Source of the DNA: an uncultured Gammaproteobacteria bacterium | GTDB lineage: Bacteria > Pseudomonadota > Gammaproteobacteria > Arenicellales > CAJQKF01 | Direction: 5' to 3' | DNA: 64,000 nt | Assembly (NCBI GenBank): GCA_905478855.1 | Contig: CAJQKF010000058.1 | Coordinates: 1-64,000 of the forward strand | Shown here: piece after piece, positions 4,491 to 61,203 of the stretch | Position numbering within the stretch: the stretch's first letter is position 1 | Layout: every line of letters begins with the position of its first letter | Made by a program: the position numbers and the translations under genes | The notes under the pieces: generated by a model | What the model was told of the DNA's origin: nothing | The model's input: the letters and a program-made list of their open reading frames with translations, nothing else | Database searches by the model: none

Positions 4491-7076
4491 TTATACAAGT
4501 TCTTGTTCTTTTCGCTTTTTCTGAGAGAAAACGACAATCATAAGTAAAAGAAATGCCGGTAAAAACATCCATTGTTTTGCTGCGCGATCGGATTTCACTT
4601 GCACATCAGCAATTTCCCAATCGAAGTCAATTTTCTGCCGTTCTGCAGGACCACCGAATGTTAGGTTGTCCACAAAGAATCGACCTTCTTCCTCTCTAAG
4701 CTCAAGTCCTGCTGACTCCTGCAATCGGGCTTGACCCTCAGCGACAGGCCCCATAGGTAGCATTACTACCTTATCGACTGGATCACCCTCAAGGGTTTCA
4801 CCAACTACATGCACACGTAACTGAGCATTTTCAGGCAGATCCGCTGCTATATCATAAATTTGTGCAGCATCGACTTTGACCAGTGGTGGTGTAATTTGGT
4901 CCATCCAAAAGCCCGGTCTAAAAAGCGTAAAAACAACTAAAAGTAAAATAATAGTTTCCCACCATTTACTTCGGGTTAAGAACCACCCTTGAGTTGCGGC
5001 AGCAAATAACAACATACCGGTAAGTGCTGAAACCACTACAACGAACAGGTGCCCTACGCCAGTAATGCCAATTAACAATAATTCGGTATTAAAGATGAAC
5101 ATAAATGGCAATATGGCAGTACGAATATCATAAGTAAAACCCTGAATACCCGTTTTTATTGGATCGCCACCAGATATTGCGGATGCGGCATAAGCCGCTA
5201 GCCCCACAGGCGGAGTGTCATCGGCCAATATGCCAAAATAAAACACAAAGAGATGAACAGCAATTAAAGGTACGATCAGACCGTTCGCCGCACCGACTGT
5301 TACGATAACCGGTGCCATAAGCGACGAGACCACAATATAGTTAGCTGTTGTTGGAAGTCCCATGCCCAAAATTAAGCTAATAATCGCCGTAAAAATCAGC
5401 ATTAATATAAGGTTCCCGGCGGAAATAAATTCAACAAGTTCGGACATAACAAGCCCAATACCTGTAAGGGTTACAGTACCCAAAATAATCCCTGCACAAC
5501 CAGTTGCGACCGCTATACCGATCATATTCCGTGCACCGGCAACCATACCACTGACAAAATCATCAATTCCTTCTCGGTACGCTTCGTTTATATTTGTCGC
5601 TTTACGGATCATTGCTTTCAATGGCTTATGAGTAACCAGAATTAGGACCATAAATAGTGTGGCATAAAATGCGGATAAGCCGGGAGATAAGCGTTCAACG
5701 GTTAAACACCAGATTAATACCATAACGGGTAATAGATAATATAAACCGGACTTTACGATCGGCCCCGGCATAGGCAGCTGATCAATTTCATCACTTCTGC
5801 CCAGTTCTGGAAAATTCGTTGAATACTTCAACAAAGCTAAATAAGCGACGATTAATATTGCAGAAGACACCCAAAAAGTTGCCGCACCAAATACATCCTT
5901 TACCCAACTAAAGCCGTAATAGCACATGCCAGACAAAATGACGATGCCGAGCACATTAACTACAAACACCATTGCGCTTTGATACCAAGCCTTTTCGACT
6001 GGCCGTTTTAATCCTTCCAAACCAGCTTTGCAGGCCTCCAGATGCACAATATAGACCAAAGCTATATATGAAATTATTGCAGGTAGAAACGCATGTTTGA
6101 TGACCTCAATATAGGAAATTCCAACAAACTCAATCATCAAAAAGGCGGCTGCACCCATTACTGGTGGCGTTAACTGACCATTGGTTGACGATGCCACTTC
6201 AACAGCACCGGCTTTTTCAGCGGAAAAACCTACTCGCTTCATCAAAGGAATAGTGAAAGTACCGGTCGTTACAACATTTGCGATAGAAGAGCCGGACACA
6301 AGCCCAGTTAGCCCAGAAGAAACTACAGCAGCCTTAGCTGGTCCGCCTTTCATATGCCCAAGCAAGGAAAAAGCAACCCAAATAAAGTAGTTTCCTGCTC
6401 CTGCTCTTTCTAGTAATGAACCAAAAAGTACGAAAAGAAATACCATGGAAGTTGAAACGCTAAGCGCAACACCAAAAACCCCTTCCTGAGTTAGCCACAT
6501 ATGTGACATGGCTTTGTTAAATGACGCTCCCTTCCAAGCAATAACCTCTGGCGCAAGATGTCCAAAAAATACGTAACCTAAAAATATGGCCGCTATAACC
6601 ATCAACGGTGGGCCAAGGGCACGACGTGCAGCCTCAAGCACCAATACAATACCTATTGCCGCTAACACGACGTCCAAGGTCTCAGGAATACCTGTTCGTT
6701 CGGCGAGTTGAAGGGCAAAAACCGATAAGTACATACTGACACACACACCAAGGATCGCTAGCCCCCAATCTTGAAACGGAATTTTGTCTCGTGGTGATGA
6801 TTTCAAAGCAGGATAGGCAAGAAATGCTAGAAATAATGCGAATGCTAAATGGATTGAGCGTGTGTCGGTATTATTTAAAACTGGAATAATATGGCCAACC
6901 ATATAGGGTAACGGCGAAGCAATCCAGAGTTGAAATACCGACCAGGCAAAGGCTACCCAAAGCAGTGCCTTGCCAACATTTCCTGAAGGATTTCGCGCAC
7001 CGGTATCGGTTGCTGCGAGCATCTCTTCTAATTGATCATGATCGATCGCATGGTCATCTTCTGGAATTGAACTCAT
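4491..7076 (-). CDS. TRAP transporter fused permease (4TM/12TM) with DUF3394-like tail
   Basis: An 861-residue integral membrane protein joins the small (DctQ-like) and large (DctM-like) TRAP subunits, as in TAXI-type TRAP systems. Many hydrophobic helices are visible. The large-subunit core contains SSGLTGLVSGSSIANVVTTG and the repeated LGMGLPTTANYIV and DDTPPVGLAAYAASAI motifs. After the helices comes a soluble segment of about 110 residues and one last helix with a KKRKEQ end, resembling DUF3394. It should import an organic acid or amino acid with a sodium gradient, using the TAXI receptor encoded just upstream on the same strand. A terminator-like hairpin separates the two genes, so the permease is probably made in smaller amounts. 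Confidence 0.9.
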   Translation of the reverse strand: MSSIPEDDHAIDHDQLEEMLAATDTGARNPSGNVGKALLWVAFAWSVFQLWIASPLPYMVGHIIPVLNNTDTRSIHLAFALFLAFLAYPALKSSPRDKIPFQDWGLAILGVCVSMYLSVFALQLAERTGIPETLDVVLAAIGIVLVLEAARRALGPPLMVIAAIFLGYVFFGHLAPEVIAWKGASFNKAMSHMWLTQEGVFGVALSVSTSMVFLFVLFGSLLERAGAGNYFIWVAFSLLGHMKGGPAKAAVVSSGLTGLVSGSSIANVVTTGTFTIPLMKRVGFSAEKAGAVEVASSTNGQLTPPVMGAAAFLMIEFVGISYIEVIKHAFLPAIISYIALVYIVHLEACKAGLEGLKRPVEKAWYQSAMVFVVNVLGIVILSGMCYYGFSWVKDVFGAATFWVSSAILIVAYLALLKYSTNFPELGRSDEIDQLPMPGPIVKSGLYYLLPVMVLIWCLTVERLSPGLSAFYATLFMVLILVTHKPLKAMIRKATNINEAYREGIDDFVSGMVAGARNMIGIAVATGCAGIILGTVTLTGIGLVMSELVEFISAGNLILMLIFTAIISLILGMGLPTTANYIVVSSLMAPVIVTVGAANGLIVPLIAVHLFVFYFGILADDTPPVGLAAYAASAISGGDPIKTGIQGFTYDIRTAILPFMFIFNTELLLIGITGVGHLFVVVVSALTGMLLFAAATQGWFLTRSKWWETIILLLVVFTLFRPGFWMDQITPPLVKVDAAQIYDIAADLPENAQLRVHVVGETLEGDPVDKVVMLPMGPVAEGQARLQESAGLELREEEGRFFVDNLTFGGPAERQKIDFDWEIADVQVKSDRAAKQWMFLPAFLLLMIVVFSQKKRKEQELV

Positions 7077-7180
7077 ATCGAACTGCCCTTTTTATATTTT
7101 CTGGTTGCAAATACTATATGTGGCGAACTAGGGGTTTATTATAATTGTTACTAAGTTCCAACATATTGATCAAAATAAAA

Positions 7181-7205
7181 CGGGGAGCAATTGCTCCCCG
7201 TTTTG
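7181..7205 (-). terminator. Hairpin terminator/attenuator between TAXI receptor and TRAP permease
   Basis: A perfect 20-bp palindrome (CGGGGAGCAA / TTGCTCCCCG) lies between four A and four T. On the minus strand it follows the receptor stop codon by about 14 bp. It may stop most transcripts after the receptor gene, giving receptor excess over permease. Confidence 0.85.
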
Positions 7206-56030: not shown

Positions 56031-56690
56031 ATGTTTGAAACAGTTCTATTTGACCTTGATGGCACGCTCGTCGATTCCGCGCCCGACTTATGTCTAGCTT
56101 TGAATACAGTTCTAGCGGAACACAATCGGCCCTTAGTTTCATTAGACGCCATAAGACCTTGGGTATCGAGAGGTACGCCAGCAATGATCAAAATAGGATT
56201 CGGGGTCAATAGCCAAGATTCCCAGTTTGAAATACTACGCCAGCAATTTCTGAACGCATACGGGGATAATTTATGCGTTGAAAGTCGCCTTTTCGATGGT
56301 ATTGAGAAGTTAATTCGCCACCTAGGAGATAGCAATATCCCGTGGGGTATTGTGACAAATAAACCAGCACGATATACCGATCCACTCGTCGACTTACTGC
56401 AGTTTCCGAACTCACCAGGAACAATCATTTCGGGAGATACCCTAACTCAAAAAAAACCCGATCCTGCTCCTCTCATACTTGCTTGCGAAAATCTCGGTAG
56501 AACTACCAATAGTACAGTCTATGTTGGCGACGACAGACGAGATATTAGGGCTGGAATCGCCGCAGGGATGCATACCATCGCAGTTGGATATGGATACACA
56601 CCGCCGGACGAAGACTTCCATCAATGGGGAGCAGATAATCATGCAACAAGCGTCAAAGAGCTTACGCAATTACTCACACCTAATAACTAA
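56031..56690 (+). CDS. gph: Phosphoglycolate phosphatase
   Basis: The 219-residue HAD phosphatase starts at the ATG giving MFETVLFDLDGTLVDSAPD (motif I). The Lys motif is in LTQKKPDPAPLI, and motif IV is VGDDRRDIRAG. It hydrolyses 2-phosphoglycolate; other HAD substrates are possible. It lies 14 bp after ubiG. Confidence 0.9.
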   Translation: MFETVLFDLDGTLVDSAPDLCLALNTVLAEHNRPLVSLDAIRPWVSRGTPAMIKIGFGVNSQDSQFEILRQQFLNAYGDNLCVESRLFDGIEKLIRHLGDSNIPWGIVTNKPARYTDPLVDLLQFPNSPGTIISGDTLTQKKPDPAPLILACENLGRTTNSTVYVGDDRRDIRAGIAAGMHTIAVGYGYTPPDEDFHQWGADNHATSVKELTQLLTPNN

Positions 56691-56785
56691 AACTTTTTAC
56701 GCAAGTAATTTTATATAACGGCCTTAAGTTCTGATCATTACCTTTATACAAACACATACCACTTGTCGATGTTCAATTTAAATCA

Positions 56786-56809
56786 ATTGACGTTTACGTA
56801 AACGTCAAT
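56786..56809. promoter_or_regulatory. Perfect 24-bp palindrome, LiuR-like operator
   Basis: Each arm is ATTGACGTTTAC or its reverse complement, meeting at a central ACGT. Its left end doubles as a -35 box (TTGACG, 56787-56792), and TATTCT (56811-56816) lies 18 bp further on as a -10. MerR-family activators such as LiuR bind in that spacer, and the ACGTwwACGT core matches LiuR sites as I remember them. The site is 37 bp before the thioesterase/isovaleryl-CoA dehydrogenase genes. No liuR gene lies in the window. Confidence 0.65.
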
Positions 56810-56846
56810 ATATTCTTATATCCTGAATGTTTACTATTGAAGAGAA

Positions 56847-57299
56847 ATGACCGAATTACGCACTCAAAACGACGACTATGTGAATGTAGTTAAAGATAGT
56901 TTTAGCAAACAAACCATTATGCATTTGATAGGTGCCGAACTGGTTGACGTTACTCCAGGATTTTGCAGCATAGAGTTATGCCATCGAGAAGATCTTTGCC
57001 AACAGGATGGCTTCTTTCACGCGGGTGTCATCAGCATTATTGCAGATTCAGCAGGTGGATATGCGGCATTCAGCTTAATGCGCCCCAACAGTCGGGTACT
57101 AACTGTTGAATTCAAAATTAACCTGTTGAGACCCGCTGCCGGACACTCCATTTTCGCCAAAGGTGAAGTTATACGCGCGGGTAAAAACCTTTCGTTCACA
57201 GAAGTAAAAGTTTATGTCCGTAACAGTAATAAGAATACACTCTGTGCAAACATGACACAGACCCTCGCTTGTGTTGATGACACCATTAAATCAGCATAA
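56847..57299 (+). CDS. PaaI-family thioesterase
   Basis: This 150-residue hot-dog thioesterase has the family pattern [25 protein letters not shown], with the catalytic Asp in ADSAGG, then [22 protein letters not shown]. It should hydrolyse a short or phenyl-acyl-CoA and may release CoA when intermediates accumulate. It is the first gene after the LiuR-like operator, and the dehydrogenase gene starts 28 bp after its stop. Confidence 0.9.
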
Positions 57300-57327: not shown

Positions 57328-58497
57328 ATGAAAACTAATTATCCTTCGTTATGCTTTGGCCTTAATGAATCTGAGCAAATGTTGCAAGACACAGTAGTGA
57401 GTTTTGCGTCTACGGAAATAGCACCACGAGCTAATGATATAGATAGAAACAATGACTTCCCATCAGATTTATGGCAAAAGATGGGTTCACTTGGCTTGCT
57501 GGGTGTCACCGTTGAAGAACAATATGGTGGCAGCGAAATGAGCTATCTTGCACACACTATAGCGATGGAAGAAATCAGTCGAGCATCTGCGTCAGTGGGA
57601 CTTTCTTACGGTGCTCACTCGAATTTATGTGTAAATCAAATTCGAAGAAACGGAAATCATGATCAAAAACAACGCTATTTGCCCAAGCTAATTAGCGGCG
57701 AGCATATAGGTGCTCTGGCAATGAGCGAGTCAGGCTCAGGGTCCGATGTTATAAGTATGGAGTTAAATGCCACTAAAACGAACGATGGATACGTACTGAA
57801 CGGTACCAAAATGTGGATCACTAATGGTCCCGACGCAGACACCCTAGTCGTGTATGCAAAAACTGATGCAGACGCCGGCTCCCGAGGCATTAGTGCTTTT
57901 ATTGTCGAGAAAAACTTTCCAGGGTTCACAACCTCGCCAAAACTCGACAAATTAGGAATGCGTGGATCAAATACGGCTGAACTTGTTTTCGAAAACTGTC
58001 TAATTCCAGATGAAAACCTGTTAGGTGATATGAATCACGGCGTCGAAGTGCTTATGAGCGGTTTAGACTATGAGCGGGTTGTGTTATCTGGTGGTCCACT
58101 CGGAATCATGCAGGCTTGCATGGATGTTGTCGTCCCTTATGTACATGAACGAAAACAATTTGGAAAAGCGATAGGTGAGTTTCAATTGATGCAAGGCAAA
58201 CTTGCCGATATGTACACAACGTTGAATGCCTGCCGTGCCTATGTTTATACAGTTGCCAAAGCATGCGATAACGGACAATCAAGCAGAAAAGATGCGGCAG
58301 GTGCAATTCTTTATTCGGCAGAGCGTGCGACAAGCATGGCACTAGATGCCATTCAAATTCTGGGCGGCAATGGCTACACTAATGATTATCCCGCGGGCAG
58401 GTTACTGCGTGATGCCAAACTTTATGAAATCGGCGCAGGAACCAGTGAAATCCGCCGCATGCTCATTGGCCGTGAGCTATTTAAAGAATCCATCTAA
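57328..58497 (+). CDS. liuA: Isovaleryl-CoA dehydrogenase-type acyl-CoA dehydrogenase
   Basis: This FAD enzyme has 389 residues from the ATG giving [12 protein letters not shown]; an earlier start lies inside the thioesterase gene. The IVD catalytic Glu is Glu249 in [15 protein letters not shown]. The MCAD position reads [10 protein letters not shown], as in IVD, and [27 protein letters not shown] and [13 protein letters not shown] are typical. It oxidises isovaleryl-CoA in leucine breakdown, or a related branched acyl-CoA. The liuBCDE partners are not present here. Confidence 0.9.
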
Positions 58498-58536: not shown

Positions 58537-59736
58537 ATGACTATACATTCTTACCAGTCGGATCCAGTGGTTATAGCTGCAGCACAACGCACGCCTATGG
58601 GTGGATTCCAGGGTGAACTTTCATCTGTACCCGCGCCAACCCTCGGGGCAATAGCTATTGAAGCCGCACTGCATAAAACAGGAATCGATGTAAACCTTAT
58701 TGACGAGGTGATTATGGGATGCGTACTACCGGCTGGACTCGGACAAGCGCCCGCACGCCAGGCCGCATTAGGCGCAAACCTTCCCCTTTCAGCCGGCTGC
58801 ACAACAATAAACAAGATGTGTGGTTCCGGAATGAAGGCTACCATGCTTGCCCATGACTTAATTCTTGCCGGTAGCGGTAACGTTATGGTTTCAGGTGGCA
58901 TGGAAAACATGTCACGCGCCCCTTATTTGTTGGATCGAGCGCGACAAGGCTATCGTCTTGGGCATGGAGAAATAAAAGACCATATGTTTCTAGATGGATT
59001 GGAAGATGCCTACGATCAAGGAAAATTAATGGGCTGCTTTGCGGAGGAGACTGCCGAATATTATAAATTTTCCCGAAAAGCTCAGGACGAATTTGCAATT
59101 CGATCGTTGCATCGCGCAATGCGGGCTATTGAGCAAGGTTTATTCACAGACGAAATTACTCCCACGGCAGTTCAATCAGGCAAGAAGAGCAAAATTATTA
59201 CCACCGATGAACAACCACATAAGGCGAATCTAGAAAAGATACGAACACTCCGGCCGGCCTTTAAGTCTGACGGAACCGTAACACCAGCTAACTCCAGTTC
59301 AATATCAGATGGTGCAAGCGCGCTAATACTCATGCGTGAATCCACAGCAAATCGGCTACATATTGATCCGCTTGCAAAGATTCTCGCCCATAGCACTCAT
59401 GCCGGTGAGCCACGTTGGTTTACAACAGCCCCCGTTCAAGCAATAAATACTGTTTTGCACAAATGCGGATTGACAACCGATGATATTGACTTATGGGAAA
59501 TAAATGAGGCATTTGCCGTCGTGACCATGTCTGCAATCACACAACTAAACCTCAATGTTGAGCAAGTAAACATCCACGGTGGTGCCTGTGCACTCGGTCA
59601 TCCAATTGGTGCCAGCGGCGCTCGAATTCTTACAACACTTATTCATGGCCTAAAACAAAACAATCTAAAGCGTGGCGTAGCCTCTTTATGTATTGGCGGT
59701 GGAGAAGCAACGGCAATGGCCGTAGAACTAACCTAG
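58537..59736 (+). CDS. Acetyl-CoA C-acetyltransferase (thiolase)
   Basis: The 399-residue thiolase II-type enzyme has acylated Cys95 in TINKMCGSGMKAT, His355 in ALGHPIGASGARI and Cys385 in SLCIGGGEATAMAVE. It cleaves or forms acetoacetyl-CoA, the end of leucine and ketone degradation. It lies 39 bp after the dehydrogenase gene and shares its predicted operon. Confidence 0.93.
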   Translation: MTIHSYQSDPVVIAAAQRTPMGGFQGELSSVPAPTLGAIAIEAALHKTGIDVNLIDEVIMGCVLPAGLGQAPARQAALGANLPLSAGCTTINKMCGSGMKATMLAHDLILAGSGNVMVSGGMENMSRAPYLLDRARQGYRLGHGEIKDHMFLDGLEDAYDQGKLMGCFAEETAEYYKFSRKAQDEFAIRSLHRAMRAIEQGLFTDEITPTAVQSGKKSKIITTDEQPHKANLEKIRTLRPAFKSDGTVTPANSSSISDGASALILMRESTANRLHIDPLAKILAHSTHAGEPRWFTTAPVQAINTVLHKCGLTTDDIDLWEINEAFAVVTMSAITQLNLNVEQVNIHGGACALGHPIGASGARILTTLIHGLKQNNLKRGVASLCIGGGEATAMAVELT

Positions 59737-59749
59737 CCAGGAATAACAA

Positions 59750-60355
59750 ATGAGCAACCCTATTCAGTTCTGGTACGATTTTTCTTCCCCTTATGGATTT
59801 CTTGCGACTGCACGTATTAGCGAAATCGAGCAACAAACTGGCCGAGCTGTCACTTGGCACCCGTACTTGATGGGTGCACTTTTTAAGACAACAGGCAGAC
59901 AACCAATAATCAACCATCCTATGATTTGGGAATATGCCAAACAGGATGTTGCACGCACGGCTCGAAAACTGAAAATGGATTTACTACTTCCGTCCGAATT
60001 CCCAGTAGCAACTGTAGGAGCATGCAGAGCAACTTACGCAATCCATGAAACTGCGGGACCCGATGAGGCAAAACGATTGGCTAAAGCACTATACCGGGGA
60101 TATTTTCAACATAATCGTAATATTTCAGTATCATCGATTATTTTAGACATTGCCGAAGAACACAACTTTGACCGAGTCACCGTCGAAGAAAACATGAATA
60201 GTCCGCAGATCAAAGCTCTTCTTCGAGAAGTTATCCAAAATGCTGGCGATAATAATATCTTCGGGTCACCGTTCTTTCTCATTGACGATGAGCCATTCTG
60301 GGGCGTTGATCATATTGACGATTTGATTCTTTGGGGACGGGACGGCTCATGGTAA
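59750..60355 (+). CDS. 2-hydroxychromene-2-carboxylate isomerase-like protein (DsbA/kappa-GST fold)
   Basis: The 201-residue thioredoxin-fold protein has QFWYDFSSPYGFLATARI with the catalytic Ser near residue 11, and FGSPFFLIDDEPFWGVDHIDDL at the C-terminus. In naphthalene degraders this enzyme isomerises an aromatic ring-cleavage product using glutathione; most genomic copies have unknown substrates. AGGA precedes the start. It lies between the thiolase gene and the overlapping TauD-type gene. Confidence 0.88.
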   Translation: MSNPIQFWYDFSSPYGFLATARISEIEQQTGRAVTWHPYLMGALFKTTGRQPIINHPMIWEYAKQDVARTARKLKMDLLLPSEFPVATVGACRATYAIHETAGPDEAKRLAKALYRGYFQHNRNISVSSIILDIAEEHNFDRVTVEENMNSPQIKALLREVIQNAGDNNIFGSPFFLIDDEPFWGVDHIDDLILWGRDGSW

Positions 60356-61203
60356 GCATACAACCGCTTCACGAAGAATTTGGAGCAACTATTACCGATT
60401 TTGATCTGACAGAACCATTTACAGAAGAACGAATACAGATAATTCTGGATGCTATCAATCAATTTTCCCTAATATGTTTTCCTAACCAAAAGATGACCGA
60501 TGATGTTCACATCGAACTTACCCGTAGAATCGGCAATCCTGAAGTCGATCACGTTCGGTTCGGAAAGACTGGAGAGATCGACTATTTCGGTGTTGTTGGT
60601 AATGTCACACCAAGCGGCAAACTGGGATCTGATGCTTCAAACACGAAGTTTCAACGAGGAAATGAAATGTGGCATTCGGATTCTTCATTCCGCGAAATCC
60701 CGTCATTTTTATCGATAACACATGCGTACGAAGTACCAGGTGAAGGCGGCCAGACTCTATTCGCCAGCATGCGTGCAGCCTATCAAAGGCTTTCTGAAGG
60801 GGAAAAACAGCAGATAGAAAACCTTCAAGTTGTGCATGATTATGTTTATTCTCGATCCAAAGTGGCGCCTGTGGAACCAGCTCACGCAGCATCCCTACCG
60901 CCTATTGTCAATCGTATGGTTCGGCGCAATCCGGTAAATCACTTAAAGAATTTTTACATCGGTTCTCATGCCCGCGATATTGTTGGCTGGGATTACAACG
61001 ATAGCCGCAAGCTACTGGATAACTTGCTACAACGCACAACGGGTCAAGGCCATGTTTATAGCCACCAATGGGCCATTGGGGACACCGTAATATGGGATAA
61101 TCGCTGTTTATTGCATCGAGGCGGCGGATACGATGCTGACCGCTGGCGTCGGTATATGCGTCAAACACGCGTAGCTGGGTTAGGCCCGACACTAAATGAG
61201 TAA
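60349..61203 (+). CDS. TauD/TfdA-family 2-oxoglutarate dioxygenase
   Basis: The protein has 284 residues from the ATG giving MVSIQPLHEEFGA, which overlaps the last sense codon and stop of the isomerase gene. Iron site: MWHSDSSF provides HxD and IWDNRCLLHRGGGYD the distal His; the Arg in RWRRYMRQTRV would hold 2-oxoglutarate. It belongs to the 2,4-D/taurine dioxygenase group and oxidises an unknown carboxylate or ether. Coupling to the isomerase-like protein suggests the two handle one substrate. Confidence 0.9.
   Translation: MVSIQPLHEEFGATITDFDLTEPFTEERIQIILDAINQFSLICFPNQKMTDDVHIELTRRIGNPEVDHVRFGKTGEIDYFGVVGNVTPSGKLGSDASNTKFQRGNEMWHSDSSFREIPSFLSITHAYEVPGEGGQTLFASMRAAYQRLSEGEKQQIENLQVVHDYVYSRSKVAPVEPAHAASLPPIVNRMVRRNPVNHLKNFYIGSHARDIVGWDYNDSRKLLDNLLQRTTGQGHVYSHQWAIGDTVIWDNRCLLHRGGGYDADRWRRYMRQTRVAGLGPTLNE

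Follow-up and report, generated by a model that had tools for sequence, protein, structure and literature searches.

Which regulator would act on a long perfect palindrome lying in front of a branched-chain catabolic operon, and would it act there as an activator or as a repressor? The question is raised by the sequence ATTGACGTTTACGTAAACGTCAAT, found at positions 56786-56809 of the 64-kb stretch of DNA analysed here (the window), inside the 156-bp gap separating gph (stop at 56690) from the start codon of a thioesterase gene (ATG at 56847). The sequence-only reading of this locus had described a flawless 24-bp palindrome resembling an operator of LiuR—a MerR-family protein described for Shewanella as repressing the catabolism of branched-chain amino acids (PMC3223726)—and the palindrome is indeed perfect over all 24 bp.

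From the base composition, 0.0043 perfect palindromes of this length are expected per 64 kb, and a first-order Markov simulation yielded one in 300 windows. Among the perfect palindromes of the window it ranks second in length, the longest being a 28-bp one at 7177-7204 (AAAACGGGGAGCAATTGCTCCCCGTTTT), G+C-rich with A and T runs at its flanks, which is probably a bidirectional intrinsic terminator. When 161 bp around the 24-bp palindrome were used as a query in a DNA search of 109 genomes from the same order, 57 of them gave matches; these were short and centred on the palindrome, covering mostly the query positions ~46-78 (window 56785-56817). Since the matches centre on the palindrome, selection acts on the element and not on its surroundings.

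Operator anatomy and the operon downstream

The features of the locus are as follows:
56786-56809, no strand assigned: putative LiuR operator of composite build, its three ACGT half-sites recurring every 6 bp, kept in relatives
56787-56792, plus strand: -35 hexamer TTGACG, within the operator; a -10 in the same direction at 17-18 bp is kept in relatives
56787-56802, plus strand: LiuR box 1, TTGACGTTTACGTAAA, 16 bp, overlapping the -35 hexamer, 0 mismatches to TTKACGTNNACGTMAA
56793-56808, plus strand: LiuR box 2, TTTACGTAAACGTCAA, 16 bp, occupying 16 of the 18 spacer bases, 0 mismatches to TTKACGTNNACGTMAA
56811-56816, plus strand: predicted -10 hexamer TATTCT of the putative promoter, 18-bp spacer
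56847-57299, plus strand: thioesterase of the hotdog fold (4HBT/PaaI-like), with which the operon begins (TIGR00369, PF03061), in the same place in relatives of the same family
57328-58497, plus strand: LiuA, isovaleryl-CoA dehydrogenase (IVD), best solved relatives all IVDs
58537-59736, plus strand: acetyl-CoA C-acetyltransferase (thiolase) of the liu operon (TIGR01930), in the same place in relatives
59750-60355, plus strand: DsbA-fold protein (PF01323), recurring in the liu operons of relatives
60352-61203, plus strand: TauD/TfdA-type dioxygenase (PF02668), downstream in the same direction

The window palindrome consists of two canonical 16-bp LiuR boxes that overlap with a 6-bp offset, and it is better read in this way than as one 24-bp dyad. 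Two boxes of the ACGT-type palindromic kind, both free of mismatches, thus stand before a branched-chain catabolic operon with an IVD gene. Among 80 named LiuR loci drawn from alpha-, beta- and gammaproteobacteria, the same box, TTKACGTNNACGTMAA, precedes liuR in 66 when one mismatch is allowed. The third half-site is also strongly enriched at liuR promoters, where it has a mean of 4.70 of 6 matches over 33 groups; hexamers drawn at random from the upstream regions gave 2.38 (sd 0.18). This excess is descriptive, the null being one of random hexamers and the groups phylogenetically non-independent. It was rejected as a rule for all LiuR operators, being mostly missing at other targets, e.g. 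gltB and bkd-like genes. In the lineage of the window the third half-site is perfect, and therefore the element looks like a single long palindrome; the three-half-site architecture at liuR promoters is missed by the simple description as a 16-bp motif.

As for the genes behind the operator, the IVD-type dehydrogenase pointed out previously is confirmed as an isovaleryl-CoA dehydrogenase, its top five solved relatives all being IVDs with E <1e-160 (e.g. 4kto, 1.5e-190, and 1ivh, 7.5e-166) and the next kind of enzyme following at 1.7e-96. In relatives the same gene order runs on into a 535-aa carboxyltransferase and then an enoyl-CoA hydratase-like gene, i.e. a classical liu operon; from its sequence and position, the carboxyltransferase is read as the putative LiuB, the beta subunit of 3-methylcrotonyl-CoA carboxylase. 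The liuB-like and liuD-like genes of the studied genome itself are found on another contig, C106, the upstream end of which is cut off, so that their regulation is not visible. It should be noted that in this family both 3-methylcrotonyl-CoA carboxylase subunit-like genes are separate from the IVD operon (locus L124; contig C106 of genome G000), and that the genome G001 has two strong LiuR-type sites, neither of which shares a contig with the 3-methylcrotonyl-CoA carboxylase-like genes. The TauD/TfdA-type dioxygenase was not seen adjoining the liu operon in the loci of relatives, and its membership in the same transcription unit is uncertain. A hotdog thioesterase gene is present near liuR and liuA in many alphaproteobacteria (loci L133-L147, from alphaproteobacteria and others), so that the association of the window operon's thioesterase with the branched-chain pathway may be an old one.

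The regulator and its sites

The regulator had been expected to be encoded elsewhere, and this proved right. The genome (4.08 Mb in 170 contigs, 94% complete) contains five genes with a MerR domain, one of them, on contig C6, being of the LiuR type. Its product carries the MerR-family DNA-binding domain (PF13411 with 61.9 bits, PF00376 and PF09278) and is 50-53% identical to the LiuRs of Shewanella, Pseudomonas, Microbulbifer and a Hahellaceae genome, the best of the five; the other four share at most 32% identity with those LiuRs. In these four sources the liuR genes head liuA-liuB operons, and by sequence the C6 protein is taken to be orthologous to such LiuRs.

The scan of the genome for further copies of the motif led to the same place. 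The 16-bp LiuR-type box without a mismatch occurs only at the window site and at C6:124780-124801, where TTGACGTTTACGTAAACGTAAC lies between liuR and the divergent icmF, coding for a fused isobutyryl-CoA mutase; the C6 liuR thus has a LiuR box at its own promoter. Four further matches with one mismatch were dropped, three of them because they fall within coding sequences and the fourth because the genes on either side have functions outside this pathway. The window palindrome is the strongest LiuR-operator-like site of the genome, and because exact copies are restricted to it and to the liuR promoter, the pair of site and regulator is found independently of the motif in the literature. The proposal that the palindrome is a LiuR-type operator is supported by this sole other exact copy adjoining icmF at the promoter of liuR; there is a LiuR-type MerR protein in the genome, and no regulon of unrelated genes stands behind the copies of the motif. 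Concerning the start of the C6 LiuR, the downstream ATG of the frame (MPSSFNITELSK...) is preferred to the first, which falls within the operator, because the -10 box of liuR is situated between the two.

The site accompanies the regulator across the order. LiuR orthologues are present in most of 60 relatives, and the core with at most two mismatches was found at 81 sites across the 60 genomes, against 12 for a reversed control pattern. It is present in 46 of the 47 genomes with a clear LiuR orthologue and in 2 of the 13 without one (Fisher p = 2.6e-9, the genomes being related, so that the p value overstates their independence). In one of the two genomes with the site but no orthologue, G009, the site stands before a thioesterase-IVD operon; the regulator may simply be missing from that assembly. 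At the liuR promoter this core recurs in almost all of the relative loci retrieved.

Promoter geometry and mode of control

The sequence-only reading had the palindrome overlapping the -35 box and filling the 18-bp spacer. The overlap and the spacer length—18 bp from TTGACG to TATTCT, positions 56793-56810—stand, but the filling is not complete, since the palindrome takes in the -35 box but only 17 bases of the 18-bp spacer, with its centre ~4 bp upstream of that of the spacer. The hexamer TATATT, two bases upstream of TATTCT and giving a 16-bp spacer, scores slightly higher as a -10, and the spacer of the window is therefore ambiguous, 18 bp to TATTCT or 16 bp to TATATT. In the liuA-side promoters of 12 relatives, the best -10 lies 18 bp (nine cases) or 17 bp (three cases) from the operator TTGACG; the spacers of the icmF promoters in relatives are mostly 17 or 18 bp, and at the liuR promoters the -35 is often the inner TTTACG, again with a 17-18-bp spacer.

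The same geometry had been taken as the hallmark of MerR-family activators, and the corresponding explanation, i.e. that LiuR is a classical MerR activator untwisting the spacer upon ligand binding at this same operator, has to be weighed. Box 2 does lie between -35 and -10 as the operators of MerR do, and LiuR has the MerR fold according to the family models, so that the likeness to the promoters activated by MerR, CueR and ZntR extends to the DNA-binding fold and to an operator between and over the two hexamers. Those promoters, however, have a 19-bp spacer, and derivatives shortened to 17-18 bp are constitutive (PMC11049809). Instead of ~19 bp, the spacer is 18 bp in the window and mostly 17-18 bp, already near-optimal, at the liuA, icmF and liuR promoters of the relatives; untwisting should therefore be unnecessary. 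The position of the operator relative to the promoter also differs, the -35 being TTGACG on the liuA side and often the inner TTTACG on the liuR side; such variation should be hard to reconcile with strict untwisting. An operator that takes in the -35 hexamer, and whose placement varies slightly from promoter to promoter, fits steric repression. With the -35 box inside the operator and LiuR described in the literature as a repressor (PMC3223726), the reading as an activator hallmark is not supported, and activation by LiuR appears rather improbable. It should be pointed out that MerR on the 17-18-bp spacer derivatives of its own promoter barely affects transcription (PMC11049809), and occupancy of the spacer alone is therefore no guarantee of repression; the overlap with the -35 is needed.

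The site could also belong to another regulator, e.g. a TetR-type one of fatty-acid or amino-acid metabolism, its presence at liuR then reflecting cross-regulation. The TetR-family proteins PsrA, FadP and LiuQ do control acyl-CoA catabolic operons in other bacteria (PMC5343134), LiuR being of a different protein family; but the site tracks liuR across the order, as the above Fisher test indicates, and is found right at the promoter of liuR in almost every relative inspected, with the 16-bp box being shared by most of the named LiuR loci. No TetR gene linked to the window site was found, and this explanation is very unlikely. Still less probable is a terminator of gph or a structural element of the mRNA, which an intergenic perfect inverted repeat might bring to mind: the palindrome is not G+C-rich and has no T-run after it, the same sequence stands at the divergent promoters of liuR and icmF, where a -10 box is conserved on either side, and it alone is conserved where the neighbouring genes change. 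Rfam gave no match in the palindrome region.

Based on the sites, the regulator, the conserved links between site and genes and the promoter geometry, all read from the sequences themselves, it is highly probable that the palindrome is a LiuR operator at the promoter of a leucine-catabolism (liu-type) operon, that the C6 LiuR also regulates liuR itself and icmF by way of a near-identical site, and that LiuR represses by binding to the overlapping boxes. In the absence of inducer, LiuR dimers would occupy both 16-bp boxes, mask the -35 hexamer and the spacer, and thus exclude RNA polymerase from a promoter with an already near-optimal 17-18-bp spacer. As branched-chain acyl-CoAs, or another catabolic intermediate, build up, LiuR would be released or change its shape, and the thioesterase-IVD-thiolase operon, icmF and liuR would be expressed.

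The known counterpart is the LiuR regulon with its 'ILV box' in Shewanella, Vibrio and Rhodospirillum (Kazakov et al. 2009, as cited in PMC3223726 and PMC7238569). Both have an orthologous MerR-family regulator, as judged from sequence and operon context, and the box TTKACGTNNACGTMAA before liuR and the IVD operon of the same pathway. The present case differs in that the regulator adjoins icmF outside the liu operon, two boxes are combined into one perfect 24-bp operator, and the genome has only two strong sites, with liuB and liuD on another contig. Regulation of branched-chain breakdown by LiuR is thus already known and the window site adds an instance of it, extending the regulon to this gammaproteobacterial-type lineage from raw sequence; what is new is the composite operator, icmF as a probable member of the regulon and a regulator encoded apart from the operon it would control.

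Extent of the regulon

In most of the 40 relative loci fetched, the site is located between liuR and icmF, in front of a liuR-liuA-thiolase-liuB cluster, or by itself upstream of liuA or thioesterase-liuA. In the genome G006, icmF lies away from liuR and has its own copy of the LiuR site (locus L120, contig C274, site at 404), which is evidence for icmF itself being a target. By this sequence evidence icmF appears to belong to the LiuR regulon; no statement on icmF in a LiuR regulon was found in the literature searches. The predicted operator-regulator pair, icmF as a target of LiuR and the arrangement of three half-sites at liuR promoters are thereby made open to checking.

A wider arrangement may tentatively be put forward, although it is more doubtful than the operator assignment itself. 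Two LiuR dimers might sit on the overlapping boxes, the 6-bp offset of about half a helical turn placing them on roughly opposite faces of the DNA with the central ACGT common to both; a third half-site in phase might be common at liuR promoters across Proteobacteria; and in this order LiuR might also govern icmF and so link the catabolism of leucine and valine with butyryl-CoA metabolism.

The same class of box was found before gltB in two Shewanella genomes, gltBD being a published LiuR target (PMC3223726), and before an etfB-like electron-transfer flavoprotein gene in Pseudoalteromonas genomes. The gltB sites serve as an indirect check on the box, the letters of the published motif not having turned up in the literature searches. 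An exact copy of the palindrome precedes a 2-oxoacid:ferredoxin oxidoreductase-like cluster (locus L106, contig C35 of genome G011, site at 4996), a possible further LiuR target. Finally, in genomes of the family f10 (loci L116, L117 and L119) a variant, TTACGTTTACGTAAACGTAA, stands before or near genes for thiolase, acyl-CoA dehydrogenase and short-chain dehydrogenase, and in two cases in f10 genomes near kynureninase-like genes; these contexts suggest a shifted regulon in that family.
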